Virus record (IMG/VR): IMGVR_UViG_3300023174_006722
Coordinates: 1 to 32,520 of that record
Direction: 5' to 3' (one strand)
DNA from: a virus
DNA length: 32,520 nt
Below the pieces are notes generated by a model that was not told where the DNA came from, did not search any database, and was given only the letters and a program-made list of their open reading frames with translations. Positions within the stretch are counted from its first letter, which is position 1. The number at the start of each line of letters is the position of its first letter. Positions 6,201 through 31,716 of the stretch are shown piece after piece. The translations under genes and the position numbers were made by a program.

Positions 6201-6394
6201 TGATTGAAGAAGCTGTTGATGTATTCATTGTATCTTGCAAATTGCTGGTCATAACTCACTGTGGATACAGCATTAAGTCTGATCCACTCTATGAAACTCA
6301 AGGGATTAGTAGAAGTAGCCACGGTACCGTCAAGCGTTACATCGGTAACTGTTACTGCATTGTTCGGTGAATAAAATCTACCTAATTCTGACAT
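3284..6394 (-). CDS. Large baseplate structural protein, T4 gp7-sized and gp7-placed
   Basis: 1,036 residues, close to the roughly 1,030 of T4 gp7. The N-terminal 200 residues are helical and charged, with a segment around residues 100-165 (EERRFLKNLDF, VPFFARKVRDICMYF, YSLKGSNIGLQKLIYNEI) that resembles a conserved block I recall from T4-like marine phage virion proteins. The rest is rich in Asn, Tyr, Phe and Thr, as in beta-structured virion proteins. No enzyme motif is visible. It lies downstream of gp25- and gp6-like genes and the PKD/propeller gene, the region that encodes wedge proteins 7 and 8 in T4. I infer a baseplate wedge or peripheral baseplate role. An ATTAAATA motif five bases before ATG suggests its own late promoter. 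Confidence 0.6.
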   Translation of the reverse strand: MSELGRFYSPNNAVTVTDVTLDGTVATSTNPLSFIEWIRLNAVSTVSYDQQFARYNEYINSFFNQQHNITDVSQFTIREQYTALVNEIVLNYTSTEERRFLKNLDFNNPHDVIIAVPFFARKVRDICMYFSTLRDKVKTAATEYSLKGSNIGLQKLIYNEISKTLETQDLTELTRTLNLTLSSIRNNTVIEIEELYDNNSNYFDISTPTASAYNATGERAENFILNFFEVDPNLYLNFNSAIVSAITSYPFYLTELGTNNFTVIPTIDATQLDLLKDADFINLINNNTQANLKLNLLAALNKKYMGTDFYYVSTGSTVSNVVSGLLFKADAPFANYLNKLYPTVAFVPNLSGLKTAKQQGLFFKPDKIGFLNFNNFNFTSFINSDKLSENAVYVFPDPTKFGNIIGNTKENQFTPLDFIEDNSVVQADFTNSYLYGDAKSDPLLPTLRGYQSREQSLLYNTQGISRYIDPQDFFKGFKKDTWANSDIYKQIPVTEFPIASRLDTLVSIDKTLVQYKSDVYGNDYGLYKYVNRATNTSDILSARDAVVTRCLILSGDMFTNTYITNNDLQSLSGIILKTTNNIPPGTGYYTPSYQFYNMGSPHYALTGAYFFINSYRYQPEVFCQDFIKNDVQCFFKDAYTFINANGTALVDSPSDATSFDPYTTVTYYDELIEAATNPMGPQYRANFAFAPTFLYTAPSSAVQLYDCSYFIISGFTDYIEPCKNALDNLGDNSDFVMQSNYVNYNIPLRQTAYLPTVAGPDENKTIYETRFANYGSFYFRNNNSSLVIPVSSALSGIFLKYPTEILHELNHNVINFDLFYDVIQIETENYLVFDKLTFDPETATIGYSTHNETYITRGNTNPMLEKTSTIWFNEKENLLLMCSMMLHPVLSASNFKAIYPVIYTLDLNRLNITQLYPSKNISTLTFEDVSTFSLSGTNQDIDITRIDKPILTYNTELDQYTISYFGKDTSNLSYLFVIDFKYINGVLTNISNRMYRPTIDLSHVNFGNPHVYNYGTYYVTGSSSGAIINGEFEFGA
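3289..3292 (-). promoter_or_regulatory. Shine-Dalgarno GGAG for the LRR adhesin gene
   Basis: GGAG lies six bases before ATG 3282, inside the last codons of the upstream gene. It supports this start and shows that SD-type initiation is used within operons, in contrast to the genes preceded by the TAAATA motif. Confidence 0.6.
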
Positions 6395-6399
6395 TAAAA

Positions 6400-6407
6400 T
6401 ATTTAAT
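6400..6407 (-). promoter_or_regulatory. Late-promoter-like ATTAAATA
   Basis: ATTAAATA on the minus strand ends five bases before ATG 6394 and overlaps the stop codon of the upstream 1,157-aa gene. It matches the window-wide motif NNTAAATA at fixed distance from a start. No SD is present. Confidence 0.5.
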
Positions 6408-9400
6408 TGTTGTATACAATATTGGTATTGTTAGTAAACAACCTTAATCCTTTGGTAAGTTCATAAGAAATCATATTCTCCACAATGCCTGTGTTTTTTC
6501 TCCACTCTTCATATGAGCTTAAAGCGGGATTCAGGGTGTTTTGCGGGTTTTTCCAGTCAATTGTATTGTTATGGTATGTATTTTCTTCATTTGAAATGAA
6601 CTCAAAAAATCTGTAGTAATTGCCAATTTTTGTACCAGAGATGGATCTGGGAGCTACCAAGCCCCAGCCCCAATTGTATGCATAAGTGCTCAGAGGCACA
6701 ACACTGTTGCTGGATAGGTACGGCAAATATACATTGTTAACTAGAATGTAATTATTAGAAAAGATTTCTTGTGCAACAACAGGTTTACCTGAAGTTATGT
6801 AGCTAGTTTCTGTGGATAATAGGGGTCCCAGATTAATTCCATAAATTGAACTGTTGGAATAACCTTTTTTATCAAAATTCAAATTGTATGTGTTCTTATC
6901 TCCCCACAGTATTTTATGTTTTATGCTTAATATGTCTATCAATCGACGCAGCTGAGGAGGAAAAGGGTAGTTGTATTCTTCAAATTGCACACCAAGCTCA
7001 CCACAGAATGAAATTAATTTATCCACATTGCATTTATCTATGTCTGCATTATTGGAAACAAAGTTTGCAATTTTCTCATAAATAGTTTTCCCCAATTCAT
7101 ATGGTTGAGCAGATGTACCGCCCACTATTGTCTTTAGAAACTCATTAAAGAATACAGTCTTATCAAGTAGTGATTCTTGAAATCGTAAGCCATTTAAAAA
7201 CTCACTTGCATCAAAATCTTCATTAATCTTTGCAACAGAATACTTGCCTGTTTTGGGGTACACATTAAACACATTTGACTCCCCCGTTAGATACCTTGTG
7301 ATTGTATAAGGGACCATGTACTTGTTGATCCATCTGGCACCGTTCCAGTCACCATAAGCTTGGAATGTCTTTTCAACCATTGCACTCACAGGAATAATTG
7401 TACTCAAAATAGGAAAATCCAAAGCCAGGAAATCTTGATCATCCACTGATGTCAAAGTTGTTTGCTCAGTGTCAATGTAGTATAGCTTTTGATCAACATT
7501 ATTAATAGTCCATACGTAATTTGCAGTGTCACAAGCTATTCCACCTATGCTACAGATATAATTGGTGGTGTTACCGCCTGCAGAGCCAGCAGGGTAATAT
7601 GTTAATGCCCTTGAAATACCATCAATTCTGATTATAGTATCCCGGTCACTTACAACATATGCATTCTGCTGTCCATCCAGAGTAATATTACCAGCTAATC
7701 TGAAACCAGACAATGGATACCCTGATACCAAAGCGCCTGTAGATTCAAATTTATATACCAGATCATTTCTACCAGTGAGATCAGTTGCAAATGATAGTAG
7801 GTTCAATGCTGTGACCCATACATACTTGTTCCTATCCACAATGAGCTCTTCGGGAGATATGTTTGGTGGTATAGGCACAACAGTTATTATGGTACCATTG
7901 GAATCATATTTTATGAGCAAGCTTGAAGCAGGGTGGGTGTATGCAACCCACAAATTATTCTCATTATCTGTGTCAAGTGATGCAGGTAAGAGTAAATTTT
8001 CACCAGCAAACCCGCTCAACTCTGGTATATTGTAGTCAGCACTGAGAGAGACAACAATATTACTATATTCTGGGTATGCTACAGCTATACCTATGCCGGA
8101 AACAGTGTTCATTTTTATGCAAGACACAGAATCAAACAAGCTGAACCAAATATCACTGTTGCCATCAATTGCTATACTGTTTGGCGCAGCACTGCTTAAT
8201 TCAGGAGATGTGAGATCTATGTCTGCCACTACTTTTGCTGGGAGATTATACACATCTTCTACTAAGAAAGGAAAAGATGAGAGATAGAATGCAGATAATA
8301 TGGCACCAAAGATATCTATTTTATAAATTCTATCTGTTCTGCCATCAGCCACCCAGGATCTGTAGTCCTCACCAGCACCTGCTCCAGAGGGAGCAACAGC
8401 TACTGCATAACTTTCTGTACTGGCTGGGGTGCTGTAATCCATTATGTAGGCAGAAAGATACAAATCAGGGAAGCCACCGCAATAGTTATAAAAGGATGTT
8501 TTAAAAATGCGCTTAATGTAATTGTATTGTGGTTCTGCTATCCAGCCAACAATGCTATCCTTAGGAAAGTTCACAGGATCTTCCACAAAAATGCCAGCAG
8601 TCAACTTAACATTCTCTGTGGATGCACTTGCATTAAAATACCCTTTGTAAAATCCTCCTATGGATCGTGGTATTTCAGGAGAGAAATCACTGTAATATTT
8701 GACACTGGTGAGAGGTGACAGAGAGTTATCTTGCACTAAGTCAATCTGCACACTGAAAGCTGTGAGCGGGGGAATAATATCCTCAATGCTATTAGAATAA
8801 AGTGGTGGGTAAGTCTTAGTTGTGTAAAAGTCATTGTCTTTAAATCTTACTACAAATGGAATATCAGTATCTATGAAAGAATTCGGTGAAAAGAAGAAAC
8901 TTGATGAAGAGAGAGCCCCTTCACCATCTACACCGTTGGTAGTTATTGAAATTGAAGCTGCAGGATTGTGTCTTACTTTGATGATGGGCAGTACTGCAGG
9001 TTGAATATTTTGAAACCCATATGGTGGGTAGTCAACATAATCAAAGATGTTGCTATATTGTGAATAAAAATCTTTAAATTTAGCGTTATCCATTGACGCC
9101 ATCAATAAGATGGGGGCATCTCTTGTGGTATAGTTTTTGGTTCTGTCATCCACATAGTAGAAATCAGCTGATCCAGTAGTTCCTGCAAAATATGCACCTG
9201 TGTCAGTCTCAGCGCACTGTTCTATGTTATTATTATTAATTCTGGCATAAATTTTTGTACTTGGCAAGTCCAGCTTGTCGACAATAATAAATTCATCAAA
9301 GTCTCCTATGCGTTGCACTTGATAAAACCGAGACAGGCTTCTCAAATGACTCCATTTGTCATTAATGTATGAGTTATAATCAATGAATTCACCAGCGGCA

Positions 9401-9876
9401 CCTGATACATATAAATTAACTGTGTAAATACCACTTAATGCTTCATATGATTGCCAGCTATTTTGACATTGCACTGTTAAGGGTTCTATAATTTTACTTG
9501 CTGGTACATCATAGATAAATCTTTTGAAATCTTTGAACCCCAGGTCGTCACAAACAAAATTCTGAATTATAATGTTTGGTGTATATGAACTATCATAAGC
9601 TCTCCCGTTATTATCAAAAATAGTCAGTTTGGGTCTGTAAGTACCTGGCCATTTGTAGACATGGCTAGCTGTTAGCGTGTTGGCGTATGTACCATCACCA
9701 AAATTCCACTCAATTTTTTTATTAGATATGATTGTCTCACCAGACAACAGAGGGCATGATGTAAAATCTGGTATGAACTGTATTGGTGTGATGTCCAGTG
9801 TATATGCACTTAAAGTTGAATTGCCATCATACCCAACTGTATTGTAAAATACATATGTGTAGTATATGGATGACAT
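6403..9876 (-). CDS. Baseplate structural protein with PKD domain and beta-propeller
   Basis: 1,157 residues. A PKD-like fold occupies about 25-100 (WNFGDGT at 57-63, then HVYKWPGTYRPKLTIFD). Residues of about 505-800 hold at least five NHL/streptogramin-lyase-like propeller blades, each with a D/N-x-x-N/Y-x-W/Y-V turn: IAIDGNSDIWFS, LDTDNENNLWVAY, VDRNKYVWVTA, LDGQQNAYVVSD and IACDTANYVWTINN. The C-terminal 250 residues contain a helical segment (ELGKTIYEKIANFVSNNADID, LRRLIDILSIKHKILWG) that looks like a wedge attachment module. PKD and propeller domains are common ligand- or sugar-contacting modules, so this may link a wedge protein to a host-contact surface; that is inference. Its ATG overlaps the gp6-like stop (TAATG), with a weak GAGAG upstream, so translation is probably coupled. 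Confidence 0.65.
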   Translation of the reverse strand: MSSIYYTYVFYNTVGYDGNSTLSAYTLDITPIQFIPDFTSCPLLSGETIISNKKIEWNFGDGTYANTLTASHVYKWPGTYRPKLTIFDNNGRAYDSSYTPNIIIQNFVCDDLGFKDFKRFIYDVPASKIIEPLTVQCQNSWQSYEALSGIYTVNLYVSGAAGEFIDYNSYINDKWSHLRSLSRFYQVQRIGDFDEFIIVDKLDLPSTKIYARINNNNIEQCAETDTGAYFAGTTGSADFYYVDDRTKNYTTRDAPILLMASMDNAKFKDFYSQYSNIFDYVDYPPYGFQNIQPAVLPIIKVRHNPAASISITTNGVDGEGALSSSSFFFSPNSFIDTDIPFVVRFKDNDFYTTKTYPPLYSNSIEDIIPPLTAFSVQIDLVQDNSLSPLTSVKYYSDFSPEIPRSIGGFYKGYFNASASTENVKLTAGIFVEDPVNFPKDSIVGWIAEPQYNYIKRIFKTSFYNYCGGFPDLYLSAYIMDYSTPASTESYAVAVAPSGAGAGEDYRSWVADGRTDRIYKIDIFGAILSAFYLSSFPFLVEDVYNLPAKVVADIDLTSPELSSAAPNSIAIDGNSDIWFSLFDSVSCIKMNTVSGIGIAVAYPEYSNIVVSLSADYNIPELSGFAGENLLLPASLDTDNENNLWVAYTHPASSLLIKYDSNGTIITVVPIPPNISPEELIVDRNKYVWVTALNLLSFATDLTGRNDLVYKFESTGALVSGYPLSGFRLAGNITLDGQQNAYVVSDRDTIIRIDGISRALTYYPAGSAGGNTTNYICSIGGIACDTANYVWTINNVDQKLYYIDTEQTTLTSVDDQDFLALDFPILSTIIPVSAMVEKTFQAYGDWNGARWINKYMVPYTITRYLTGESNVFNVYPKTGKYSVAKINEDFDASEFLNGLRFQESLLDKTVFFNEFLKTIVGGTSAQPYELGKTIYEKIANFVSNNADIDKCNVDKLISFCGELGVQFEEYNYPFPPQLRRLIDILSIKHKILWGDKNTYNLNFDKKGYSNSSIYGINLGPLLSTETSYITSGKPVVAQEIFSNNYILVNNVYLPYLSSNSVVPLSTYAYNWGWGLVAPRSISGTKIGNYYRFFEFISNEENTYHNNTIDWKNPQNTLNPALSSYEEWRKNTGIVENMISYELTKGLRLFTNNTNIVYNN

Positions 9877-11741
9877 TAGTATTCTCTCTCAAGAAATTGT
9901 AGGGATGGGGTTATGACTAGAATTTTATTAATAAACTCCAGTTGATTGTTGAGGTAAGGAAATTTAAAAAATGGTAGCTGTGTGTCTTGTGCAATAATAT
10001 TGATATCTTTAAAGGGGTAAACAGGATTATATCCCATTAAGCTAACTCCTGGCACTTCAAGAGTTGTGCCATTTACTGTTCTTATGGTTTTAATATCAGA
10101 AATGCCATCAATGGCCTTGATACTATTGGTGAGACTGGTAAGTGAGATCAACAATCCAAGATTGTCATTGCTTGTTGAGAAGTACTTTCTAAAAATTTCT
10201 GAAATCTCTTTTTTAATTGCTTCAGGGTTACGCTTTGATGTGACACTTCTTGTTATCTGCAGATAGGTGGTATCGCTTATGGTAGGATCTAATGTTTCAC
10301 CTGGGGCTTGCAACCCTAGATCAATTTGCACATACACAGGATCATTTATAACAATTTCTGCTGTTACTACTTTTGTGTTATTAAGATTGTTTATTATCAA
10401 TTGCTTTTGTGCGCTGTTTAAATAGTTTGCCCTGGTAGTGAGAGAAGTTGTTTTTTCCAATCTTGGAACAGCATACACATATATGTTGTTGAAATTGCAT
10501 GAATCAGAAAACTTTACCTGATTGAAAAGAATGCGTGAATCCATGTTGGGTTGCTCTATGCCTATATCAAAATAATATTTGATGTGTTGGGCTAAATAAT
10601 CCCAGTTATTGACAACCTTTACAGAGCCAAGAATACTATTGAAATTTGCATCCAGATAGTTTTTGTAATCCTCTGCAGTGATTAATCTGTATTGACTTTT
10701 GAATGTGTTGGGTGCATTCTGCTTGATACTTTCAACAGATTCAGCTTCTACGTAATTAGTTGAAGGGCTGGTATTTGTAAAGATGATGTAACTTGCTTGA
10801 GTTTGTGTTAGTACCTGCAGGTTTACAGGTGTGGTATCAGTTTTAATCTGATTGAAACGGTCAGTATTGTAGCTAAAAAGTGTATTGCCGTTCAGTACGT
10901 TGGGACCTATTTGACCAGCAGCACCAGCAGATTTGAGATAATAGATTGCAACCTGGTCATTAGCGTTCAAGCTTCTTCCATTTATGTTGTTACCGAACTT
11001 TATCTCATACATTCCATTTTCATTCAAACGTATTTCATACTTTAATGCAGTTCCTCTTTCTAGAAATAAAGATTCAGTTGGTTCCCATTTGCTCCATGCT
11101 GCGTTCTCATTTGTAGTATTGTCTCTAACATATACATCAATGTTAAAATGGTCTATGTTAACGGTTTTTTGTGTGTTGTCTAGAGCCACCAGTGTTACAA
11201 CTTCAAATGGTTCACCGGTGGCAATGTATGTGGGGTATTCAGTGTAGTTTCCTTGATACAGGAGATTTTGCGTGCTCAGATCTTCAAGATATTCCACAGT
11301 AGGTAAACTCTTAGTAAAAGAAACATCTCTATTAAAAGAGTAATTGACCCCGTTTACTGTAAAATATGAGTACCTCTGAATTGTATATGTGTCAGGCGCT
11401 AGTTGCACACCAGCAGTTGCCTCAAATGGTAGTATTGATGATTGGTTTCCAATGGGTTTATAATTTAAAAGCTTCACAACTTTGTTTATATTCTCATACA
11501 GTTGTGCTCCTGTAAACGTGCTCTCAGAGCTTGTTTGATTTAGATAGAAAAGTAATACATGATAGGAGTAAGCAATAATATCTATGATGGAAGATATGTT
11601 GCTACCAAGAAAATTTTGATCAGTAAACACAGTATTGCTATTAAGTCTGGTGGTAATCAGGTCGCGTAATGATGTTGCATCAAATGCAGCATAACCATCT
11701 GTGTTTAGATTGAAATTGTTGAATGTATTTTGTGTTGCCAT
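9876..11741 (-). CDS. Baseplate wedge protein, T4 gp6 / P2 gpJ-like
   Basis: 621 residues; T4 gp6 is about 660. The N-terminal block is diagnostic of the gp6/J family: LRDLITTRLN at about 25-34, FLGSNISSIIDIIAYSYHVLLFYLNQ at about 44-69, then YENINKVVKLLNYKPIG before about residue 100. A middle beta-rich region contains YEIKFGNNINGRSLN, the F-G-D/N-G turn usual in baseplate J proteins. The C-terminal part (RNPEAIKKEISEIFRKYFS) also fits the family. In T4, gp6 dimers form the ring that ties wedges together around the hub. It lies directly after the gp25-like gene with a one-base gap and no SD or TAAATA motif, so it is probably translated from the gp25 transcript. Confidence 0.85.
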   Translation of the reverse strand: MATQNTFNNFNLNTDGYAAFDATSLRDLITTRLNSNTVFTDQNFLGSNISSIIDIIAYSYHVLLFYLNQTSSESTFTGAQLYENINKVVKLLNYKPIGNQSSILPFEATAGVQLAPDTYTIQRYSYFTVNGVNYSFNRDVSFTKSLPTVEYLEDLSTQNLLYQGNYTEYPTYIATGEPFEVVTLVALDNTQKTVNIDHFNIDVYVRDNTTNENAAWSKWEPTESLFLERGTALKYEIRLNENGMYEIKFGNNINGRSLNANDQVAIYYLKSAGAAGQIGPNVLNGNTLFSYNTDRFNQIKTDTTPVNLQVLTQTQASYIIFTNTSPSTNYVEAESVESIKQNAPNTFKSQYRLITAEDYKNYLDANFNSILGSVKVVNNWDYLAQHIKYYFDIGIEQPNMDSRILFNQVKFSDSCNFNNIYVYAVPRLEKTTSLTTRANYLNSAQKQLIINNLNNTKVVTAEIVINDPVYVQIDLGLQAPGETLDPTISDTTYLQITRSVTSKRNPEAIKKEISEIFRKYFSTSNDNLGLLISLTSLTNSIKAIDGISDIKTIRTVNGTTLEVPGVSLMGYNPVYPFKDINIIAQDTQLPFFKFPYLNNQLEFINKILVITPSLQFLEREY

Positions 11742-11742
11742 A

Positions 11743-12222: not shown

Positions 12223-12227
12223 ATACA

Positions 12228-12235
12228 TATTTATG
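12228..12235 (-). promoter_or_regulatory. Late-promoter-like CATAAATA
   Basis: Minus-strand CATAAATA ends five bases before ATG 12222 of the gp25-like gene. One mismatch to the T4 late consensus TATAAATA. It would drive the wedge operon leftward. Confidence 0.6.
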
Positions 12236-12259
12236 GTAAAAATTAAGTAGGAAACTCAT

Positions 12260-12276
12260 AATAAATAGTATAAATA
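12260..12276 (+). promoter_or_regulatory. Tandem late-promoter-like AATAAATA / TATAAATA
   Basis: Two motif copies, AATAAATA (12260-12267) and TATAAATA (12269-12276), one base apart. The second is a perfect T4 late consensus and ends six bases before ATG 12283. Lies in the 60-base spacer between divergent genes. Confidence 0.65.
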
Positions 12277-12282
12277 TCATTA

Positions 12283-12885
12283 ATGGAAAAGAAGTTTTTA
12301 AAGCTTTATGAAGCGGCTATTAGCAGATACACAAGAGGTGGATTTCTAACAAGTGACAGAGTTAAGTTCGTAGACACTGTGTTTAAGAATGATTTCTTCA
12401 AAGATCAGCCAGAATCCATCAAAAGTGCAGTGAAAGATCTCATTGATTCAGGGTTAAATCTAAGAGTTAAGAACATTAAATCGTTCACACCTGCAGTAAT
12501 GGGTGCTGGCAATCCAGATAATTTTGGCTATGGTTTTACAATAGAGGTTGTACCTGAAATAGCTCCAGGCACATTTGACTACAATAAGACTGTCACAGTT
12601 CCATCCAATTTACTCGTGCATCAGAATGACTACCCCAATCTGCCACCCATTCCTGATCAATTTAAATATGATAACAAAGTTCAGATTGACCCAATCCCAG
12701 TGAAGCTACCAGATACAGGCAATTATCTGACACCTCAGAAACAAACAGGGTTTTCTGATGTTGGGGGCAAGATGCAGCCTGGTGACAGAGAGCTAACAGA
12801 CAAAAATATCAAGATCCCTGCTGTACCTGCTGAAGGTCAAAAAGATCCTGCTGTGTACACGGCAATGTATTTACCGAAAAACTGA
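12283..12885 (+). CDS. Conserved-looking phage protein of unknown function
   Basis: 200 residues. The N-terminal third is helical (KKFLKLYEAAISRYTRGGFLTSDRVKF, then an amphipathic SIKSAVKDLIDSG). The C-terminal half is Pro-rich and extended (repeated PPIP, PIPVKLP, IPAVPA), suggesting a flexible tail that wraps a partner. No catalytic motif, signal peptide or membrane segment. It has a perfect TATAAATA six bases before ATG, so late expression and a virion or assembly role are likely, but I cannot name it. Its 3' end overlaps the clamp-loader gene tail to tail by 15 bases. Confidence 0.8.
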   Translation: MEKKFLKLYEAAISRYTRGGFLTSDRVKFVDTVFKNDFFKDQPESIKSAVKDLIDSGLNLRVKNIKSFTPAVMGAGNPDNFGYGFTIEVVPEIAPGTFDYNKTVTVPSNLLVHQNDYPNLPPIPDQFKYDNKVQIDPIPVKLPDTGNYLTPQKQTGFSDVGGKMQPGDRELTDKNIKIPAVPAEGQKDPAVYTAMYLPKN

Positions 12886-13821
12886 GAATAGTGTTGGGTC
12901 TGCCATCAGTATGAAGCAGCTGAAGCAATTAATCTCTTGATCCACAACAAAAGCAGATCTGTACAAATGCTCAGCTATTATTAGTAAATACTTTCTCTTC
13001 AAGTCAGCATCCATTTGCTTGTTTTCTATGTACTTAAAAAGTCCTCTGAGTAGCAGAACATAGTCTGCGTTGAATATGCTCTCATTCTCAATGAGTATCT
13101 TTCTCAAGATATTAATATTCTTGCTTACTATCTCTTTGAACACCGATTCATACAATTCATTATTTGAAAAACTGTGAATCTTAAGCTTGCCTGTAACTGA
13201 AAACTTTTGAAGTTCATTGATGCATGATCTGAGATCAGGGTAATATGATTTTATAAAGTCAAATAAGATGGACTTTTGATCAGCATCTATTTCTATCTTT
13301 TCTGTCTTCAGAATATTTATGCATCTCTTGATAGATTTGTCCAGTGGAGGTGTCACATCCAGATTCTGGCATCTGCTTTGCAAAGCAGGAATAATTCTAT
13401 ATTTGTAGTTAGCAGTCAGAATGAATCTTGTTAAATTAGAAAACTCTTCCATGGTATTTCTTAGTGCACGCTGACCATCTAATGAGATACCATCTGCTTC
13501 ATCAAGAATAATAACTTTAATACCACCATCAATGCTTCTGGTCTGGGCAAAGCTAGTTACCTTTGTTCTGATGGTCTCAATACCATTTTCATCACTGGCA
13601 TTGATATACAGATATTGACATTTTAAAATGTCTTTGACAATTATTTTAGCTAAAGTTGTTTTTCCTAGACCTTGCTTGCCTGCTAATAGGAGATTAGGAA
13701 TTTCTTTGTTATTGACAAAGCTATTTACTATTTCTAGATTTTGATCTGTAATGACAAAGCTATCTAGTTTTTGTGGTCGATACTTCTCGACCCAAAGATT
13801 TGAAATTTCTTGTAGGTTCAT
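12871..13821 (-). CDS. Clamp-loader ATPase large subunit, T4 gp44-like
   Basis: 316 residues; T4 gp44 is 319. The AAA+ motifs are complete: WVEKYRP at 10-16, Walker A GKQGLGKTT at 48-56, Walker B VIILDEADG at 103-111, sensor 1 around ILTANY (134-139) and the SRC arginine-finger motif at 149-151, followed by the helical lid and collar. The protein loads the sliding clamp onto DNA using ATP. In T4 the clamp (gp45) also activates late transcription, so a loader gene among late structural genes bearing T4-like late promoters is coherent. The ATG overlaps the dUTPase stop (ATGA), indicating translational coupling. The small loader subunit (gp62) and the clamp are not in the window. Confidence 0.93.
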   Translation of the reverse strand: MNLQEISNLWVEKYRPQKLDSFVITDQNLEIVNSFVNNKEIPNLLLAGKQGLGKTTLAKIIVKDILKCQYLYINASDENGIETIRTKVTSFAQTRSIDGGIKVIILDEADGISLDGQRALRNTMEEFSNLTRFILTANYKYRIIPALQSRCQNLDVTPPLDKSIKRCINILKTEKIEIDADQKSILFDFIKSYYPDLRSCINELQKFSVTGKLKIHSFSNNELYESVFKEIVSKNINILRKILIENESIFNADYVLLLRGLFKYIENKQMDADLKRKYLLIIAEHLYRSAFVVDQEINCFSCFILMADPTLFSVFR

Positions 13822-14270
13822 TTTCCAGAGGAACCGAAACCCTTTTCACCGCGGGTAGAAGCTTGTCCTGTGCCCCATTCAACTTGCATGTGTATGTTCA
13901 TGTAGACTATGAACTGTGCAATTCTGTCACCTGCTTTGATCTCGTACAGAGCATCTGTTGAATTGTATAACTTGATACCTGCATCACCTCTGTAACCATT
14001 GTCAATGATGCCTGGATGTGCAGTGATACCGTGCTTAAATCCTAAGCCGCTCCGGCTCTCAACCTTTACCCAATATCCTTCTGGAATGTCAGCAAATTTT
14101 AAACCAACATTCACTACAACTGACCCTCTGGCGGGTACTATTTTGTCTTCAATGGAATACACATCATAACCTGTATCAGAATCATGATTCTTGCTGGGGA
14201 GCTTAGCATCTGGGTGCGTCTTTTCAAATAGTAATACAGGCATGTATGTGAGGTTAAGATCAGAATTCAT
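13818..14270 (-). CDS. dut: dUTP diphosphatase (trimeric dUTPase)
   Basis: 150 residues with all five dUTPase motifs in order: DTGYDVYS at 32-39, ESRSGLG at 71-77, PGIIDNGYRGD at 86-96 (catalytic Asp and the uracil-pocket Tyr), KAGDRIAQF at 112-120 and the C-terminal arm RGEKGFGSSG at 140-149. It hydrolyses dUTP to dUMP and pyrophosphate, keeping uracil out of phage DNA and feeding dTMP synthesis; the family is homotrimeric. It is full length and looks intact. It leads a two-gene island with the clamp loader, divergent from the helical protein at 14322. The upstream region lacks NNTAAATA and instead has TATAAT-type sequences, fitting earlier expression. Confidence 0.95.
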   Translation of the reverse strand: MNSDLNLTYMPVLLFEKTHPDAKLPSKNHDSDTGYDVYSIEDKIVPARGSVVVNVGLKFADIPEGYWVKVESRSGLGFKHGITAHPGIIDNGYRGDAGIKLYNSTDALYEIKAGDRIAQFIVYMNIHMQVEWGTGQASTRGEKGFGSSGK

Positions 14271-14276
14271 AGTCTT

Positions 14277-14304
14277 ATTATATTATAAGTGTATATGAAA
14301 TCAA
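14277..14304 (-). promoter_or_regulatory. Possible sigma70-type promoter for the dUTPase/clamp-loader pair
   Basis: Minus strand: TTGATT (14304-14299), 16 bases, TATAAT (14282-14277), then six bases to ATG 14270. A second TATAAT overlaps at 14287-14282. Match to TTGACA is partial (4 of 6) and the DNA is A+T-rich, so this is tentative. It contrasts with the NNTAAATA elements before virion genes. Confidence 0.3.
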
Positions 14305-14308
14305 ATGG

Positions 14309-14316
14309 AATAAATA
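14309..14316 (+). promoter_or_regulatory. Late-promoter-like AATAAATA
   Basis: Ends five bases before ATG 14322. This spacing, constant across the window, is the main reason for choosing 14322 over upstream GTG 14289 or ATG 14295. Confidence 0.5.
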
Positions 14317-14321
14317 CTGTT

Positions 14322-14795: not shown

Positions 14796-14796
14796 T

Positions 14797-18460: not shown

Positions 18461-18465
18461 ATTAA

Positions 18466-18473
18466 TATTTATA
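18466..18473 (-). promoter_or_regulatory. Late promoter TATAAATA
   Basis: Perfect T4 late consensus on the minus strand, ending five bases before ATG 18460. Lies in the 37-base gap after the 455-aa gene. Confidence 0.7.
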
Positions 18474-18497
18474 AAAAGAGCTTTAAATGCTCTTCAA

Positions 18498-19865: not shown

Positions 19866-19870
19866 TTAAA

Positions 19871-19878
19871 TATTTAAG
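19871..19878 (-). promoter_or_regulatory. Late-promoter-like CTTAAATA
   Basis: Ends five bases before ATG 19865 and overlaps the tape-measure stop codon (its TAA is the TAA of CTTAAATA). Confidence 0.5.
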
Positions 19879-22654: not shown

Positions 22655-22660
22655 CAAATA

Positions 22661-22668
22661 TATTTAAG
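22661..22668 (-). promoter_or_regulatory. Late-promoter-like CTTAAATA
   Basis: Ends six bases before ATG 22654 of the tape measure, in the short gap after the 247-aa gene. Confidence 0.5.
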
Positions 22669-22688
22669 ATGGAACAGTAGTTTTAACT

Positions 22689-23432: not shown

Positions 23433-23437
23433 ATAAC

Positions 23438-24274
23438 CTATTTATAACCTTGTGGTTTGTTTTCAACGCTCTTCTGCCGCTCTTCCTTGAGCTGGTTCAT
23501 TTCAGTTTCTAAAATGTTCTTCAAGATAAGGTTTTCTACTAGCGTATTCTTATCAATATACTCTGCAGAGTAAAACAGCTTGCTAACTAATATATACTGC
23601 AATTCATAAAGACTTTTTAGATTGGTGGTGAAGAGCACTTTGATAAATTCAAACATATTATTATCAAAAGGTGAGACAATAAAAGACTGATCACTATCAA
23701 AGAGCTTAATTTCACACTGCTTGAACACAGAGGACACTTCATTCTGATAAGCTCTTAAATCTGAAATTATGGAGGATGGTAATTTTTCAAAAATTGCAAT
23801 TTTTTCCTCATCTGAGAGACTGCTGTAGTTGATAGGAGCACCATTGATGATAATTTCTTGAATTGAGAAGCACAAGGGATCATACACATCGTTAAAACAT
23901 AAATTCTTAGGCAAATCGGTTTCAAGGGTAAAATTATCATGTGTAAAGGTACGTTTGAATGATTTGCTTAAACTTTGTAATTGTGTAAAAATAGGTATGA
24001 TGGATGTTTTCTTTGTAAACTTTCCAGAAGATATTTCCACTTCTGAAGATATGGATGCCAATCTTAGAAGGAATAAGAGCAAGAATTTATCAAAATTTGT
24101 GAGCAACGTTGCATTAGAATTGCTCTCTATAATGTGGTTGAAATATTCATCTATGTGCTTGTTGTTTTTATTGCCAATGAATTTATTTAAAATTCTGTAT
24201 TGCTCAAAGGTGAGCTCTTTTACTGTGAAGATTTTGCTTGTGGAGGGTTGAGTAAATGTTAAATGAAATTGCAT
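23438..24274 (-). CDS. Second gp26/gp51-like tail assembly protein (tentative)
   Basis: 278 residues. The N-terminus SKIFTVKELTFEQYRILNKFIGNKN shows the same strand-turn-helix plan as the next gene, and the protein contains LSDEEKIAIFEKLPSSI, comparable to FNQKTQIVEKIP in that gene, so the two may be distant paralogues. No enzymatic motif. Two adjacent small proteins before a tape measure suggest a chaperone pair. The ATG overlaps the upstream stop (TAATG) with AGGA eight bases before it, so it is probably translated from the upstream transcript. Confidence 0.5.
   Translation of the reverse strand: MQFHLTFTQPSTSKIFTVKELTFEQYRILNKFIGNKNNKHIDEYFNHIIESNSNATLLTNFDKFLLLFLLRLASISSEVEISSGKFTKKTSIIPIFTQLQSLSKSFKRTFTHDNFTLETDLPKNLCFNDVYDPLCFSIQEIIINGAPINYSSLSDEEKIAIFEKLPSSIISDLRAYQNEVSSVFKQCEIKLFDSDQSFIVSPFDNNMFEFIKVLFTTNLKSLYELQYILVSKLFYSAEYIDKNTLVENLILKNILETEMNQLKEERQKSVENKPQGYK
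23439..23446 (-). promoter_or_regulatory. Late promoter TATAAATA embedded in the end of the upstream gene
   Basis: Perfect consensus. Its bases are also the last codons of the 278-aa gene: TAT AAA TAG reads Tyr-Lys-stop. Ends six bases before ATG 23432. Confidence 0.7.
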
Positions 24275-25182
24275 TATAAGAATCCTAATGGATTTATAGA
24301 GCCAATGCCGTTTTGGAAGGATGTGACTCTAGGTATTTCACCATTAGCTATTCTATTAACAATATCGGCTATAGGCAAGTACAAGTTATTCTCAATTGTG
24401 TAATTGCTGTAAGACCAGCGTGTTGTATAGATTTGTTCTTTTTCTTCTGAAAAATCCAGTGTCTGTGTGCTTATGGAATATGGTGCACAATTAAAGAATG
24501 TATAAACCTTTCTTGGAATCATGGAGATGCCATTGAATGTTCTTGTGTACTGCAACAGCGTCATATTGCATTTCATGTTGAGTGGGTCTTTTGTTGTGGT
24601 AGTATCCTTCTGTCTAGCTGCTAATCCAAAATGAGATGTGAGAATTGTCCATGGTTTTAGAACAAAATCAATAAATGATGTGTTTGTTTCTCTGAACTCA
24701 ATTGATAGTTCTGGCGGTGTGTTGGATCTGTTGCCTGCTAATATTCCGGGTAGAAACCCTCTGTTATTGTTTACAGATATTGATTCCATGGCAAATTCTT
24801 CTACTGGAATAGTAACAGAATAAGCAAATAAACATCCTACGATTTTTTGAAGAGGAAAGCTTGCAAGAATTGTTTTAGCAGATGATATGTCCCAGCCTTT
24901 TCTTGCACCATCAGTTCTCTCTACTCCTTGTATTATTTGTGTTCTTAATGCAGGGGGGTAGTTATCTATTACAATCATCCACTGTGTGGACATTGGAATG
25001 GATGTGAACCACGATTCCATTTGTACGAGAAAATAATCTCTAGGACTTATTAAGGGTACACCTGGAAGATTAAATCCAAATAAATCAATTACTTGTGGGG
25101 CGAATAGAGAGTTAGTACCGTTTGATATGTTGGTAAAATTATTACCTAATGATTGCAGTGCACTGGCAAACGGATCGTTCAC
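24274..25182 (-). CDS. Tube-fold structural protein, possible tail-tube initiator (gp54-like)
   Basis: 302 residues from a GTG start; CTTAAATA ends five bases before it. Features: ISPRDYFLVQMESWFTSIPMSTQWMIVID near the N-terminus, then strands with the loop IPVEEFAMESISVN, then ELSIEFRETNTSFIDFVLKPWTILTSHFG, the strand-plus-helix hallmark of gp19/gp54/gp48 tube-type proteins (a strand ending in F-R-x-T followed by a W-containing helix). It follows the tail tube gene. A role in starting or capping the tube is inferred; a minor tube or baseplate protein is the alternative. Confidence 0.6.
   Translation of the reverse strand: MNDPFASALQSLGNNFTNISNGTNSLFAPQVIDLFGFNLPGVPLISPRDYFLVQMESWFTSIPMSTQWMIVIDNYPPALRTQIIQGVERTDGARKGWDISSAKTILASFPLQKIVGCLFAYSVTIPVEEFAMESISVNNNRGFLPGILAGNRSNTPPELSIEFRETNTSFIDFVLKPWTILTSHFGLAARQKDTTTTKDPLNMKCNMTLLQYTRTFNGISMIPRKVYTFFNCAPYSISTQTLDFSEEKEQIYTTRWSYSNYTIENNLYLPIADIVNRIANGEIPRVTSFQNGIGSINPLGFL
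24283..24286 (-). promoter_or_regulatory. Shine-Dalgarno AGGA for the 278-aa gene
   Basis: AGGA eight bases before ATG 24274, inside the last codons of the 302-aa gene. No TAAATA motif lies at the usual distance. Confidence 0.45.
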
Positions 25183-25187
25183 CTAAT

Positions 25188-25195
25188 TATTTAAG
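25188..25195 (-). promoter_or_regulatory. Late-promoter-like CTTAAATA before a GTG start
   Basis: Ends five bases before GTG 25182, supporting that non-ATG start. Confidence 0.5.
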
Positions 25196-25210
25196 AAGAG
25201 ACTGAATTAC

Positions 25211-25759
25211 TTAACTTGTTTTTCTCCAGTAATGATAGGAGATAGTTGCAGTAAATTCAATGGTGTTACCTGTGCCATCAGAGATGTTGTAGCTCAATGG
25301 ACCAACACTTCTAACAGAAACACCAACCAATTGATACTGGGCTATTTTGTTCATCTGATTGTCCAGCTGAACAAGATCAATTACTGCTGTCTGTTTAGGA
25401 GCAAAATAATTACCTGTGCTTGTTCCATCATTGAAAACATCTTGTGACCATGTTTCAAATTTCTGACGGATTTTTGATTGAGCATCAGCATAAAATGTTA
25501 ATGTGTAAGCTTCACTGCCAGGATATGTAGCATTGCCAGGTAAATTGAAGTTTAATCCCATGAAAGGAACTGCTACATTGGTAATGGCTCTTTCAGGTAG
25601 AGTTGCTGTTTTGACATATACTAAATCATCATTGTCAAATGAGACTGTGCTAGCTCCCCCAGTGTTAATTGACAATACTCTGAAAGCATAATCACGAGCA
25701 AACTCGCGGTTCTGAGCTACTCTGTAGAAGTCTGTAATTAGTTGATTTACGTCTGACAT
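25211..25759 (-). CDS. Tail tube protein, T4 gp19-like
   Basis: 182 residues; T4 gp19 is 163. The pattern is that of gp19-type tubes: N-terminal FARDYAFRVLSIN, strand DLVYVKTATLPERAITNVAVPFMGLNFNLPGNATYPGSEAYTLTFY ending in an amphipathic helix (SKIRQKFETWSQDVF), then the strands IDLVQLDNQ, YQLVGVSVRSVGPLSYN and the last strand FTATISYHYW. It polymerises as stacked hexamers inside the sheath. It lies directly after the sheath gene, as in T4, with its own AATAAATA six bases upstream. Confidence 0.88.
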   Translation of the reverse strand: MSDVNQLITDFYRVAQNREFARDYAFRVLSINTGGASTVSFDNDDLVYVKTATLPERAITNVAVPFMGLNFNLPGNATYPGSEAYTLTFYADAQSKIRQKFETWSQDVFNDGTSTGNYFAPKQTAVIDLVQLDNQMNKIAQYQLVGVSVRSVGPLSYNISDGTGNTIEFTATISYHYWRKTS

Positions 25760-25765
25760 AAAATT

Positions 25766-25773
25766 TATTTATT
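25766..25773 (-). promoter_or_regulatory. Late-promoter-like AATAAATA (tail tube)
   Basis: Ends six bases before ATG 25759, in the 16-base gap after the sheath stop codon. Confidence 0.55.
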
Positions 25774-25775
25774 CT

Positions 25776-28067: not shown

Positions 28068-28073
28068 ATAAAG

Positions 28074-28081
28074 TATTTATT
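28074..28081 (-). promoter_or_regulatory. Late-promoter-like AATAAATA (tail sheath)
   Basis: Ends six bases before ATG 28067. The 44-base gap upstream of the sheath gene holds nothing else clear. Confidence 0.55.
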
Positions 28082-28111
28082 TGTTTCGGGGTAAGATTTT
28101 TGAAAAAATAT

Positions 28112-28732
28112 TTATATATTATCTGTATTTTCAATTAGATTGACAAATAGTTGTGAGAAAGTAAATGTAAAGTTTGTTTCAAGTTCCTCTGGGTTGCGGT
28201 AATTAAAGTCAATACCACCCAAAGAAACAGGAAAAGCTCTGGTATATTTAAACTCTATGATGCGTTTGTTGTACTCATCTAAAGGAAAGAGAGATATATC
28301 TGCTTTATAATCATCAAGAATTGTTTTATTTAGCATGGTGTTCCCTTTGGTTGCAGGTATCAGGTTTTTTGAGTCAAATGTACTGTCGTAAGTGTTGTTC
28401 AGGATGTTGAGCCAGGAATATATGACCCAGTAATTATTGAATCTGTTATCAACAGTGAAGTTCACAGTGACGGGCTCATAGGGTGGTCGGGCAAGACTTG
28501 ATTGTGACAATGTTTGCCCAGAGTATCTTATGTCTAGTTTAGGCACTTGTATGGTAGGTACAACAGCCCCATAAACAGAGAATTGCAGTGAATTGGGAAT
28601 AATATGTGCATTGTCTCTGCTAATTTTTTGTGATATCTCTTTTAATGCATCAGGAAAATTAAGGACAAATAAAAATTTATCTTTACGCTGTTTATTGAAA
28701 GGACTTTGAATATAGGATTCTGTGTTAGCCAT
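28112..28732 (-). CDS. Tube-fold virion protein between terminase and sheath
   Basis: 206 residues. The arrangement is that of tail-tube-type proteins: KDKFLFVLNFPDAL, then PNSLQFSVYGAVVPTIQVP, a strand ending in YEPVTVNFTVDNRFNNYWVIYSWLNIL (strand followed by a W-containing helix), and a last strand ETNFTFTFSQLFV. T4 has no gene between 17 and 18, so this is an insertion relative to T4. Possibilities are a second tube subunit, a tail terminator or a neck/tail completion protein; I cannot choose. The ATG lies eight bases inside the terminase end with a strong GGAGGAG, so it is expressed from the terminase transcript. Confidence 0.65.
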   Translation of the reverse strand: MANTESYIQSPFNKQRKDKFLFVLNFPDALKEISQKISRDNAHIIPNSLQFSVYGAVVPTIQVPKLDIRYSGQTLSQSSLARPPYEPVTVNFTVDNRFNNYWVIYSWLNILNNTYDSTFDSKNLIPATKGNTMLNKTILDDYKADISLFPLDEYNKRIIEFKYTRAFPVSLGGIDFNYRNPEELETNFTFTFSQLFVNLIENTDNI

Positions 28733-30425
28733 TTAGTCTCCTCCAGCCCTGTGATTCAAGATCTGATAGTTCATTGTAATCATCTTTATTCTTACCTTGT
28801 ATTAATACAGGCATAGGATTGAAACTTTGTGCATCTTTTTCATTGTGGTATGACCCTGCAGGGTTAATATAATACTTAATACCGAAATCTAATAGCTTGA
28901 GTTTAAGAGGCTTTTTATTGTCATCTAATTCTGCTATTTCAAAATATTTTTCACATAATTCATTTTCCAGAATTACAAGAGCCCATACCAAAGACATGAC
29001 TCTGTCATCCCAATTGTCTGCACCAGGTCTTGCTGCCCATGTGCCATTTGGATAGCGTACAAAGTTTTTTAACTCTACTAATGTGTTTAGATCAAAAATC
29101 TTAACAGCTTTCAATTCATTGACCCAGTATCTCATGTTGGTGACACCTTTGTATTTTGTATTGGTATGAGCTTGTACACCTATCTTATTGGTGTTAGTTT
29201 TGATTCCATAGGATACTATATTTTCATAGTTGTGACTATTTTTGAGCTGATCAACAACTTGTGCACCACAATTGTTTCTTTCAATCAGTGCAGGAGGCAT
29301 GCCCCAGTGCTGCAGAATGTCAAAAAGTTTTGCTGTAAAATTATATGGGGAGATGTTTCTGTCATGATAGCAAGCTACTTGCTTGATGTTTCTTAAATCA
29401 GTAAGATCAAGTATCTGTATCACACTTGCAGCAGCTCCAACACCTTCACAAACGTCCACACCTGCTACATATATGTGATCTTGCTTGAAGCTATCCCATA
29501 GTAGATATTTTCCATCATCATAAACAAAATCAGGCTCCCTGGCATCAGCTTTTAATTCTTCAAAAAGTTTCTCATTGATGGAGCTTTCACCAGTCTGTAA
29601 AAATACATTTCCAAATTCTTGATCAAATGCTTCAGCACTCCCTAGAGTGCGAATTGTTTTCTCCCTCCATGCTTCATCACGGTCTGGTACCTCCCACCAG
29701 TCAACGCGTTCAGCATGCCATCCATTCTTCCCTTCTGTGGCTCCAGAATATAATTCATGGAATAAATTTCCTGTGCCATTGGGAGTACTTGCTACAAATA
29801 TTTTTGATTTTTTGGAACTGGAAATAATTGGGTAAACTGATTTCCAGAATTGTTCAACCAAGTGATTATCAATAAATGCCAACTCATCCAAAATGACCAC
29901 ATTCACAGATTCACCTCGCCCAGCATCACTGCTGGTTGTTGAAATGCCAATTGATGATCCATTGCCAAGTGTCATGGATGTTTTCCCATATTCCACTGCG
30001 CCAGGCTTGAGATAGTTTGGCAGTTGCTCATAAGCTAATCTCACACGCTTAAAAATGTTGATGGCAGTCTGCTCTTTATTTGCCACAATTAATATGCGTT
30101 GATCAGGATTAAAACATGCATTCCAAAGAGCATATATGGTCATGAGTGTGGATTTACCTATCTGTCTACTAGCTAATAACACAACAAATCTATTGTCTCT
30201 CAGCCCTCTTAGAATTTTCTTTTGATAGGAGTGTAGCTTAATTTTCATTTTGCCCTCATCAAGGTTTACTATGTAAAAGAAATTTTCTGCAAAATGCAAT
30301 ATATTCTTACTGCATTTGCCTATTTCTTTGACCCACTGGGGGTTACTGGTGTAATCAAAAGTTGCATCTGGTCTCGGCAGATTTGCATTGCCCAGATAAA
30401 ATTGTTTATTGTTATTATCACTCAT
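28725..30425 (-). CDS. Terminase large subunit (packaging ATPase and nuclease), T4 gp17-like
   Basis: 566 residues; T4 gp17 is 610. ATPase domain: Walker A SRQIGKST at 86-93, Walker B VVILDEL at 176-182 with catalytic Glu181, coupling motif ASTPNGTG at 212-219. RNase H-like nuclease domain: first Asp in AGVDVCEG (D324), Glu in LIERNN (E382), last Asp in NWDDRVMSLVWAL (473/474). It powers DNA translocation into the prohead at the portal and cuts the concatemer. It is the first gene of the leftward structural block and is divergent from the acidic protein gene, with only 16 bases between the start codons. Confidence 0.96.
   Translation of the reverse strand: MSDNNNKQFYLGNANLPRPDATFDYTSNPQWVKEIGKCSKNILHFAENFFYIVNLDEGKMKIKLHSYQKKILRGLRDNRFVVLLASRQIGKSTLMTIYALWNACFNPDQRILIVANKEQTAINIFKRVRLAYEQLPNYLKPGAVEYGKTSMTLGNGSSIGISTTSSDAGRGESVNVVILDELAFIDNHLVEQFWKSVYPIISSSKKSKIFVASTPNGTGNLFHELYSGATEGKNGWHAERVDWWEVPDRDEAWREKTIRTLGSAEAFDQEFGNVFLQTGESSINEKLFEELKADAREPDFVYDDGKYLLWDSFKQDHIYVAGVDVCEGVGAAASVIQILDLTDLRNIKQVACYHDRNISPYNFTAKLFDILQHWGMPPALIERNNCGAQVVDQLKNSHNYENIVSYGIKTNTNKIGVQAHTNTKYKGVTNMRYWVNELKAVKIFDLNTLVELKNFVRYPNGTWAARPGADNWDDRVMSLVWALVILENELCEKYFEIAELDDNKKPLKLKLLDFGIKYYINPAGSYHNEKDAQSFNPMPVLIQGKNKDDYNELSDLESQGWRRLNG
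28738..28744 (-). promoter_or_regulatory. Shine-Dalgarno GGAGGAG for the 206-aa gene
   Basis: Strongest SD seen in the window, within the last terminase codons; the five-base core GGAGG is seven bases from ATG 28732. Confidence 0.65.
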
Positions 30426-30428
30426 TAA

Positions 30429-30442
30429 TATAAATATTTACA
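30429..30442. promoter_or_regulatory. Overlapping divergent late-promoter-like elements
   Basis: Plus strand TATAAATA (30429-30436) ends five bases before ATG 30442. Minus strand TGTAAATA (30435-30442) ends nine bases before terminase ATG 30425. They share two bases. The plus element is a perfect consensus; the minus one is weaker and off the usual spacing. Confidence 0.5.
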
Positions 30443-31329
30443 TGAATAAAGCAAAAGAGCTAATAGAATTGGGAAATCTTTATAGTGAAAAGGTTACGTT
30501 CCCGCCCAAAGGAACATTTGAAATGGTCAAGGATGCAAAAGAAAAGAAGAAGCCCTTCATTGGAAAGACTTCAGGACCAGAAGCAGCTGGTGGCTTTGAA
30601 CCAAAGAAATATGCTGATCCAAAGACTACTGCAAAAAAGAAAGACACATTTCAAGAGGTAGAGAAATTTTCTTCACAAAAATTTAGTGAAAAAGTTGGAA
30701 AAAGTGAAACTAAGAGTATAAATAATTACATGAGCAATATATTTGATAAACTTTTTGAAGAAGTAATGGGTCTTTCCCAGGATGATCAAGACGCACAAGA
30801 TCTTGGTCTCACACTACCTGCTGCTGGCGATAAGCCTGCAGGTGAGGAAGGTGCTGATGCAGAAGGTGATGTAACCTTCACATTACCCCGTGATGTAGCT
30901 CAGAAACTTTGTGATGTTATGCATGCTGCATTAGGCTCTGAAGATAAAGCTGAAACTGAAGGTGAAACTGAAGGTGAAACTGAAATGGAAGCTGAAGGTG
31001 AAGCTGAGAATGATGAATCTGAAGAAGCTAATGAAGAAGGCAGCCAAGCAATTGCTGGTGAAGCCACTGCCACAGAGACCCTACCAGATTCAAAGGGCAA
31101 AACCTTGCAAGGCAAGAGCAACAAGGTAACCGCTGATGTATCAAATAGTCTCAAGTCTTCTGGTGGTGGTGATGGTAAAACAACTGATAAGGTTGGTAAT
31201 GATGGTGACAAAGGTCATGCCCTAGTGGGTGGTGGTGTTAAGGGTGGTGCCTCAACATCTCCCAAGGGTAAAGCTAATGTAGTAGCTGGTAAAGCTTCTA
31301 ATGTTGGTCATTACGTTGCACAAAAATAA
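30442..31329 (+). CDS. Acidic repeat-containing protein, possible prohead core or virion protein
   Basis: 295 residues from ATG 30442 (MNKAKELIELG); an upstream in-frame ATG at 30409 would run through the promoter motif and into terminase. The N-terminus is Lys-rich. A helix NNYMSNIFDKLFEEVMG lies near residue 100, followed by a strongly acidic Glu-rich stretch (GETEGETEGETEMEAEGEAE) around 170-190. The C-terminal third is Gly/Lys/Ser-rich and probably disordered (GGGDGKTTDKVGNDGDKGH, PKGKANVVAGKA). No enzyme motif. Acidic, Lys-rich and low-complexity composition next to terminase and neck genes recalls T4 prohead core proteins (gp67/gp68 class), but this is inference from composition and place. 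It ends 21 bases before a terminator. Confidence 0.75.
   Translation: MNKAKELIELGNLYSEKVTFPPKGTFEMVKDAKEKKKPFIGKTSGPEAAGGFEPKKYADPKTTAKKKDTFQEVEKFSSQKFSEKVGKSETKSINNYMSNIFDKLFEEVMGLSQDDQDAQDLGLTLPAAGDKPAGEEGADAEGDVTFTLPRDVAQKLCDVMHAALGSEDKAETEGETEGETEMEAEGEAENDESEEANEEGSQAIAGEATATETLPDSKGKTLQGKSNKVTADVSNSLKSSGGGDGKTTDKVGNDGDKGHALVGGGVKGGASTSPKGKANVVAGKASNVGHYVAQK
30949..31010 (+). repeat. In-frame tandem repeat, GAA-GGT-GAA-ACT unit
   Basis: A 12-base unit coding Glu-Gly-Glu-Thr occurs about 2.5 times and then decays into GAA-GCT/GGT variants. It encodes the acidic tract. Copy changes would keep frame and only alter its length. Confidence 0.7.
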
Positions 31330-31350
31330 CACTATTTTTGAAATTAAAAA

Positions 31351-31378
31351 AGCCTAACGCAAGTTAGGCTTTTTTTTT
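31351..31378 (+). terminator. Intrinsic (Rho-independent) terminator
   Basis: Perfect 8-bp stem AGCCTAAC / GTTAGGCT with GCAA tetraloop, preceded by six A and followed by a run of nine or more T. The A-run on the left could also let it act on the opposite strand. It ends the acidic protein unit. Confidence 0.93.
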
Positions 31379-31379
31379 G

Positions 31380-31387
31380 ATTAAATA
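31380..31387 (+). promoter_or_regulatory. Late-promoter-like ATTAAATA before a GTG start
   Basis: Begins two bases after the terminator T-run and ends five bases before GTG 31393. It restarts transcription for the neck genes. Confidence 0.55.
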
Positions 31388-31392
31388 ACATT

Positions 31393-31716
31393 GTGACTAC
31401 TTTTAAGGATTTTTTTAATGCTGGTACTCCAGGTAGCATGGGCATTACACGCAAAAGACATCATGGAGCTCTTCTGAACACAAGAAGACCTCATGAACCT
31501 GTTCCAGATATGCACAAAAGTAAAAAAGATGTGGATAAATTTCGCTCTCTGAAAGGTAAGATGACAGGCAAATACAATATAACAAATAATGAGGCGGAGG
31601 AACTGAAAACCAGATTTAATGTTAAATTCTCACAGAGTAATGTAGCAACTCTTGGTAATACAGGCATAACATTATACAAGAATCCTAATGGAGAAGGGTA
31701 CATTCTACAAAAATGA
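31393..31716 (+). CDS. Small basic protein of unknown function
   Basis: 107 residues from GTG 31393. Strongly basic first half (TRKRHHGALLNTRRPHEP, KSKKDVDKFRSLKGKMTGK), then a helix and a Gly/Asn-rich end (NTGITLYKNPNGEGYILQK). No Cys or membrane segment. It is co-transcribed with the gp14-like neck gene, whose ATG overlaps its stop by four bases (ATGA), so a small head- or neck-associated or nucleic-acid-contacting protein is plausible but not shown. No family recognised. Confidence 0.75.
   Translation: MTTFKDFFNAGTPGSMGITRKRHHGALLNTRRPHEPVPDMHKSKKDVDKFRSLKGKMTGKYNITNNEAEELKTRFNVKFSQSNVATLGNTGITLYKNPNGEGYILQK

Follow-up and report, generated by a model that had tools for sequence, protein, structure and literature searches.

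Promoters adjoining start codons in a T4-like phage lineage: candidate leaderless early and late operons

The 32,520-base virus record IMGVR_UViG_3300023174_006722 (the whole of which is referred to here as the window), a fragment of a T4-like myovirus, carries the hexamer TAAATA almost directly before many of its start codons, which raises the question of whether this motif is a late promoter that leaves the message without a leader or a signal used in translation. The window encodes gp6-, gp25-, gp26-, gp3-, gp14-, gp17-, gp18- and gp19-like proteins, together with a gp44 clamp loader and a dUTPase. A nucleotide search against known phages returned no DNA-level match to the window, and its terminase shares at most about 40 % identity with those of GenBank phages. 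Comparison of the window with its relatives suggests that in this T4-like lineage promoters have very probably become fused to start codons, with first cistrons that would be leaderless and downstream cistrons that would mostly be coupled.

A probable late promoter motif next to start codons

The gap is defined as the number of nucleotides (nt) between the last base of a promoter box and the start codon. The original prediction listed 13 TAAATA sites in the window, and every coordinate and sequence variant proved to be correct (Table 1), with eight sites at gap 5 and five at gap 6. When gene starts were taken from simple open reading frame (ORF) calls, 13 of the 23 starts in the window were found to have the motif at gap 5 or 6, whereas none of 3000 dinucleotide-shuffled versions of these regions upstream of the starts had more than three. 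A count independent of gene models, made before ATG or GTG frames of at least 100 amino acids (aa), gave nine TAAATA at gap 5 and five at gap 6, but no more than one at any of the remaining gaps between 0 and 40, and TAAATA was the commonest hexamer at gaps 5 and 6. The copy that had been reported nine bases from the terminase start is a TAAATA at gap 9, which is kept at gap 9 in the two largest near relatives (G001 and G002, of 162 and 157 kilobases).

Viral relatives were collected by sheath and gp6 searches, which yielded more than 140 loci, and the distance scan of relatives proposed as a check on the original prediction revealed a spacing sharply peaked at gaps 5 and 6 rather than random. 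Loci with a sheath identity of at least 60 % include 90 occurrences at gap 5 and 48 at gap 6, as opposed to 0–13 at each other gap from 0 to 40. The counts at gaps 5, 6 and 7 are 33, 8 and 8 in G001 and 28, 9 and 5 in G002, while each gap from 8 upwards has about one. The pattern TAAATAN5RTG outnumbers its reversed-pattern control in relatives (40 versus 8, 36 versus 3 and 25 versus 2), whereas cellular genomes are near 1:1. The spacing between motif and start codon is confirmed as real.

The start-adjacent position of the motif is a derived state. Most sheath orthologues, in which the start is fixed by the conserved N-terminus, hold gap 5 or 6 although their flanks diverge, and in a tree of the sheath C-terminal region the clade of the window (27 rows, support 97/96) accounts for 24 of the 25 leaderless-like rows. 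The more distant relatives G004 and G006 show a wider spread, of 5–13 nt. In T4, Syn9, P-SSM2, S-SRM01, S-H38, C48C1, XG4, DLP6 and Melnitz almost no motif is found at gaps 5–7, TAAATA lying mostly 18–41 nt upstream; the same distance prevails in 36 loci from cellular genome bins, with few gap-5 sites at most in any of them.

The 13 window sites and hundreds of sites in relatives match wTAAATA, the TATAAATA-like −10 element of T4-type late promoters. In the window, G001, G002 and the further relative G003, with genes classed as early or late by homology to T4, P-SSM2 and HTVC008M and not by expression timing, the motif stands at gap 4–9 before 29 of 52 late genes, compared with 3 of 45 early or replication genes (p=2e-7), and the three exceptions are phoH. 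Between −15 and −22, the base composition at gap-5 sites is even, and no conserved −35 element appears in that span. The gp55 late sigma family (phrog_234) was found in 13 of 20 relatives, G001–G003 among them, and gp45-like genes in some; no gp55 gene was found in the window, itself a fragment. The reader of wTAAATA is presumably gp55.

In T4, the late element spans −13 to −6 and transcription starts 6 nt past the last A of the motif (PMC1524935). With this geometry, the transcription start (+1) of a gap-5 promoter would coincide with the first base of the gene's start codon. The match to the T4 consensus, the late-gene bias, the presence of gp55 in relatives and the placement with a leader in outgroups support the T4-type late promoter that had been proposed, and the reading best supported is a promoter of this type from which transcription would start on the start codon.

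A probable early promoter class, start codons and coupling

Replication genes carry another promoter, which was absent from the original prediction and consists of TTGATA or TTGATT, 16 nt, TATAAT or TATACT, 6 nt and the start codon. In the window, the promoter of the dUTPase–gp44 operon has the full layout TTGATT-N16-TATAAT-AAGACT-ATG. Matches to both boxes have a sharp maximum at gap 6 in all six samples of relatives (12, 12, 9, 6, 8 and 9), a maximum that is missing from T4, the cyanophages and Melnitz. This sigma70 class was assigned to 17 of the 45 early genes but only one of the 52 late genes (p=6e-6). Genome-wide counts of TATAATN6ATG alone, in cellular genomes and phages, gave a signal too weak to be used by itself.

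In leaderless bacterial genes, the TANNNT box is located about 12 bp ahead of the start codon (PMC3160421). The early TATAAT at gap 6 has its first T at −12, matching that position. Gap 5 for the late class and gap 6 for the sigma70 class thus each fit the promoter-to-RNA distance of their own class, which suggests that both set +1 on the start codon. Were the elements translation signals, nothing would lead one to expect a one-base offset between the two gene classes, and this difference therefore supports the reading of both elements as promoters.

Start codons at gap 5 comprise 156 ATG, 57 GTG and 5 TTG, compared with 103 ATG and 6 GTG at gaps 6–7 (p=1.4e-6), and T occupies position −1 in 72 % of gap-5 sites. 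Purine start codons after T fit transcription initiation at a purine that follows a pyrimidine. Leaderless GUG is functional in some actinobacteria but weaker in E. coli and Caulobacter (PMC9031893).

Shine–Dalgarno (SD) use is 9–10 % in G001–G003 and 6–10 % across the main relatives, as against 3–9 % in the control, 61 % in T4 and 51 % in HTVC008M. With the exception of gp17 (gap 9), window genes without an adjacent promoter start on the preceding stop codon, one base past it or overlapping it, and in G001 the motif precedes 6 of 62 coupled genes versus 43 of 104 others. The original prediction of two mutually exclusive modes of initiation therefore has to be recast, as the second mode is mostly stop/start coupling and not SD-directed initiation. 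As for the SD sequences it had assigned to motif-less genes, the 206-aa gene (start at 28732) does have a strong GGAGGAG, whereas the AGGA of the 278-aa gene, which starts on the preceding stop, is weak; as for the leucine-rich repeat (LRR) gene named with them, a Pfam scan of ten window proteins gave no match to an LRR family.

In the proposed explanation, late operons would be read from a gp55-type wTAAATA ending 5–7 nt before the first start codon, and early operons from a sigma70-type TTGAtw-N16-TATAAT with a gap of 6 between its −10 box and that codon. For either class, +1 would coincide with the A or G of ATG or GTG or lie no more than about 2 nt away, so that the first cistrons would be leaderless. 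Translation of downstream cistrons would depend mostly on coupling, where stop and start codons overlap or adjoin, and the host ribosome would have to accept leaderless mRNA. It is from sequence that we infer the actual +1, leaderless translation and host competence.

Exceptions and competing explanations

Several observations weigh against this explanation. The major capsid gene (gp23) has a conserved leader and no adjacent motif (G001 132200–132399; also G002 and G003); the leader contains GGTCGACAA, followed by AAAGGAAA in two of these three genomes. About 20–33 % of G001 and G002 genes belong to no class, sites at gap 7–9 would imply short leaders (up to about 4 nt), and GTG at gap 5 may equally reflect a start-codon habit. 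Moreover, the competence of the host for leaderless mRNA is an assumption, and the +1 offset ascribed to the gp55 of this clade is borrowed by analogy from T4.

The last of these points bears on a reading in which the promoters are of gp55 type but +1 is displaced downstream or upstream relative to T4, giving short leaders (3–10 nt) or a true start codon further downstream. The divergence of gp55 in the clade, the existence of gaps 7–9 and the broader spread in distant relatives would agree with such a displacement, which is nevertheless very improbable, since the sharp peak at gap 5 equals the T4 offset, the start codons are purines with T at −1, and sheath starts are fixed by orthologous N-termini, including those of orthologues with another initiation layout.

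That other layout is found in a sheath sub-clade (L025–L031, L042, L051, L059 and L060) in which the sheath start lies 44–52 nt from TAAATA. In 9 of 10 loci (L025, L027, L029–L031, L042, L051, L059 and L060), an 11-codon mini-ORF opens 7–8 nt after the motif; its stop lies 1 nt 5′ of the sheath ATG in eight of the nine, and its length is constant while its sequence varies. In L026 an earlier ATG was chosen by the script, and reading by eye suggests the same mini-ORF layout. Several of the mini-ORF loci contain an SD-like sequence within the mini-ORF. In this sub-clade, the promoter still adjoins a start codon. Sheath orthologues, some with the promoter directly adjacent and others with an 11-codon mini-ORF in between, provide a natural series for the change of initiation mode.

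Two further features of sheath upstream regions were observed. A AAAACTTT-like stretch is conserved about 15 nt 5′ of TAAATA in sheath promoters only, and a second TATAAATA lies in the window at 28109–28114 (−), 41 nt 5′ of the sheath ATG, which is shared with L009 and L028 and not with the other relatives examined.

The mini-ORF loci also bear on the alternative offered with the original prediction, namely that UAAAUA, with flanking A/U, is an A-rich translation-initiation element of a non-SD host and that transcription starts elsewhere upstream. Such an element would be expected to keep a fixed short distance from starts in genomes where, as in the main relatives, SD use hardly exceeds background, and some phyla are known to have A-rich initiation signals. 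However, replication genes do without it and have instead a sigma70 −35/−10 pair at another fixed offset, the one proper to sigma70; the motif is identical to the T4 late promoter, which related phages keep mostly far upstream and with a leader; it is depleted in coupled genes; and where the sheath gene has shifted by about 45 nt, it is the mini-ORF that adjoins the motif instead. The alternative is consequently disfavoured and rated as very unlikely, and the comparison argues strongly for mRNAs that would be leaderless.

A product of chance or of gene calling, with starts picked to fit a motif that is common in AT-rich DNA (the window, at about 37 % G+C, contains 48 copies of TAAATA, both strands counted), is next to inconceivable, being refuted by the shuffles, permutations of unrelated motifs, reversed-pattern controls and start-model-free counts, none of which reproduces the spacing, and by the roughly 1:1 ratio in cellular genomes.

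Known systems, host and other features

The late promoters read by gp55, gp33 and gp45 in T4, other Straboviridae and the cyanophages share with those described here the TAAATA core, A/T at −12, the association with late structural genes and the lack of visible −35 conservation, and the gp55 family is present in the relatives. They differ in lying mostly 18–41 nt before a start that is preceded by a leader, whereas in the lineage of the window the distance is 5–6 nt, which would leave no leader, and SD use scarcely exceeds background. Leaderless genes of Deinococcus-Thermus and Actinobacteria, with the first T of the −10 box about 12 bp before the start and no 5′ untranslated region expected, have exactly the geometry of the early promoters (PMC3160421, PMC12340547); those, however, are cellular genes dependent on a housekeeping sigma factor, while the phage appears to use the layout for both sigma70-type and gp55-type promoters, each at its own offset. 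The Thermus phage phiYS40, compared by description, likewise has mostly leaderless middle and late mRNAs, but according to a review (PMC3594737), which describes no T4-type late promoters for it, it alters host IF2 and IF3 expression; the lineage of the window is not known to act on initiation factors.

The closest cultured parallel is the T4-like Pelagibacter phage HTVC008M, in which TAAATA stands at exactly gap 5 before 11 annotated starts, all ATG, among them those at record positions 6280, 7562, 11972, 19456, 31132 and 49760. It falls outside the clade of the window in the sheath tree, has an SD at about half of its genes (with TAAATA at 18–21 nt in SD-led genes) and lacks the early −10 peak at gap 6. 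In a survey of pelagimyophages, late promoters were not predictable (PMC7029224), and this failure may be explained by the many that sit 5 nt before ATG in HTVC008M. Since this phage is cultured, it allows a direct test of whether leaderless translation can be fed by a T4-type late promoter.

It is likely, judging from the comparisons above, that a whole T4-like lineage has dropped leaders and SD sequences in early and late operons, fusing two promoter classes to start codons at their own offsets and coupling the rest, and thus runs a leaderless programme based on late transcription of the gp55 type, to which a cultured SAR11 phage offers a partial parallel. Each ingredient is known, and their combination in T4-like phages appears to be unreported in the open-access literature searched. 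If this reading is true, promoter and translation signal would form one short module, so that starts could be predicted from promoters and late genes recognized without homology. It would also imply hosts with efficient leaderless initiation and provide a handle on identifying them.

A host search with the sheath protein in genome contigs gave no match, and an alignment query found only distant relatives in many unrelated bins, from which no host could be named. An actinobacterial host was considered by means of the WhiB marker, which was absent from 14 relatives, and glycan, GH108 and queuosine genes did not fix the host either. Two phage-encoded aids to leaderless initiation were also rejected: the tRNA(CAT) genes of G001 and G002, as read by eye, lack the GGG/CCC anticodon stem of an initiator tRNA, and S21, present in HTVC008M, had no match in the clade loci. 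G001 (L176–L184) carries queuosine/7-deazaguanine genes (QueC, QueF, PTPS, GTP cyclohydrolase I and radical SAM) and a glycan-synthesis cassette.

Table 1. Promoter boxes and selected genes in the window (gap in nt; start codon given with its position)
Feature	Positions	Strand	Gap	Start codon	Gene or remark
TAAATA (ATTAAATA)	6400–6405	−	5	ATG, 6394	1036-aa gene
1157-aa protein, PKD domain	6403–9876				no PHROG match
gp6-like baseplate wedge	9876–11741	−			start 1 nt past gp25 stop; coupled, without adjacent motif
TAAATA (CATAAATA)	12228–12233	−	5	ATG, 12222	gp25-like baseplate wedge
TAAATA (TATAAATA)	12271–12276	+	6	ATG, 12283	200-aa gene
gp44-like clamp loader	12871–13821	−			overlaps dUTPase stop; coupled, without own promoter
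dUTPase	13818–14270	−			first gene of early operon
−10 box TATAAT	14277–14282	−	6	ATG, 14270	dUTPase (early operon with gp44)
−35 box TTGATT	14299–14304	−			16-nt spacer to TATAAT; layout as in early promoters of relatives
TAAATA (AATAAATA)	14311–14316	+	5	ATG, 14322	157-aa frame
TAAATA (TATAAATA)	18466–18471	−	5	ATG, 18460	123-aa baseplate-wedge-like protein
TAAATA (CTTAAATA)	19871–19876	−	5	ATG, 19865	455-aa gene
TAAATA (CTTAAATA)	22661–22666	−	6	ATG, 22654	926-aa gene
TAAATA (TATAAATA)	23439–23444	−	6	ATG, 23432	gp26-like hub, 247 aa
TAAATA (CTTAAATA)	25188–25193	−	5	GTG, 25182	302-aa tail-tube-like protein
TAAATA (AATAAATA)	25766–25771	−	6	ATG, 25759	gp19-like tail tube
TAAATA (AATAAATA)	28074–28079	−	6	ATG, 28067	gp18 tail sheath
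gp3-like tail terminator, 206 aa	28112–28732	−			overlaps terminase stop; SD GGAGGAG
TAAATA	30435–30440	−	9	ATG, 30425	gp17 large terminase
TAAATA (TATAAATA)	30431–30436	+	5	ATG, 30442	295-aa gene
TAAATA (ATTAAATA)	31382–31387	+	5	GTG, 31393	107-aa gene
gp14-like gene	31713–32450	+			overlaps stop of gene before; coupled

Among the tail genes of the window, three clustered proteins (24274–25182, 25211–25759 and 28112–28732) match the same tail-tube PHROG, phrog_45.

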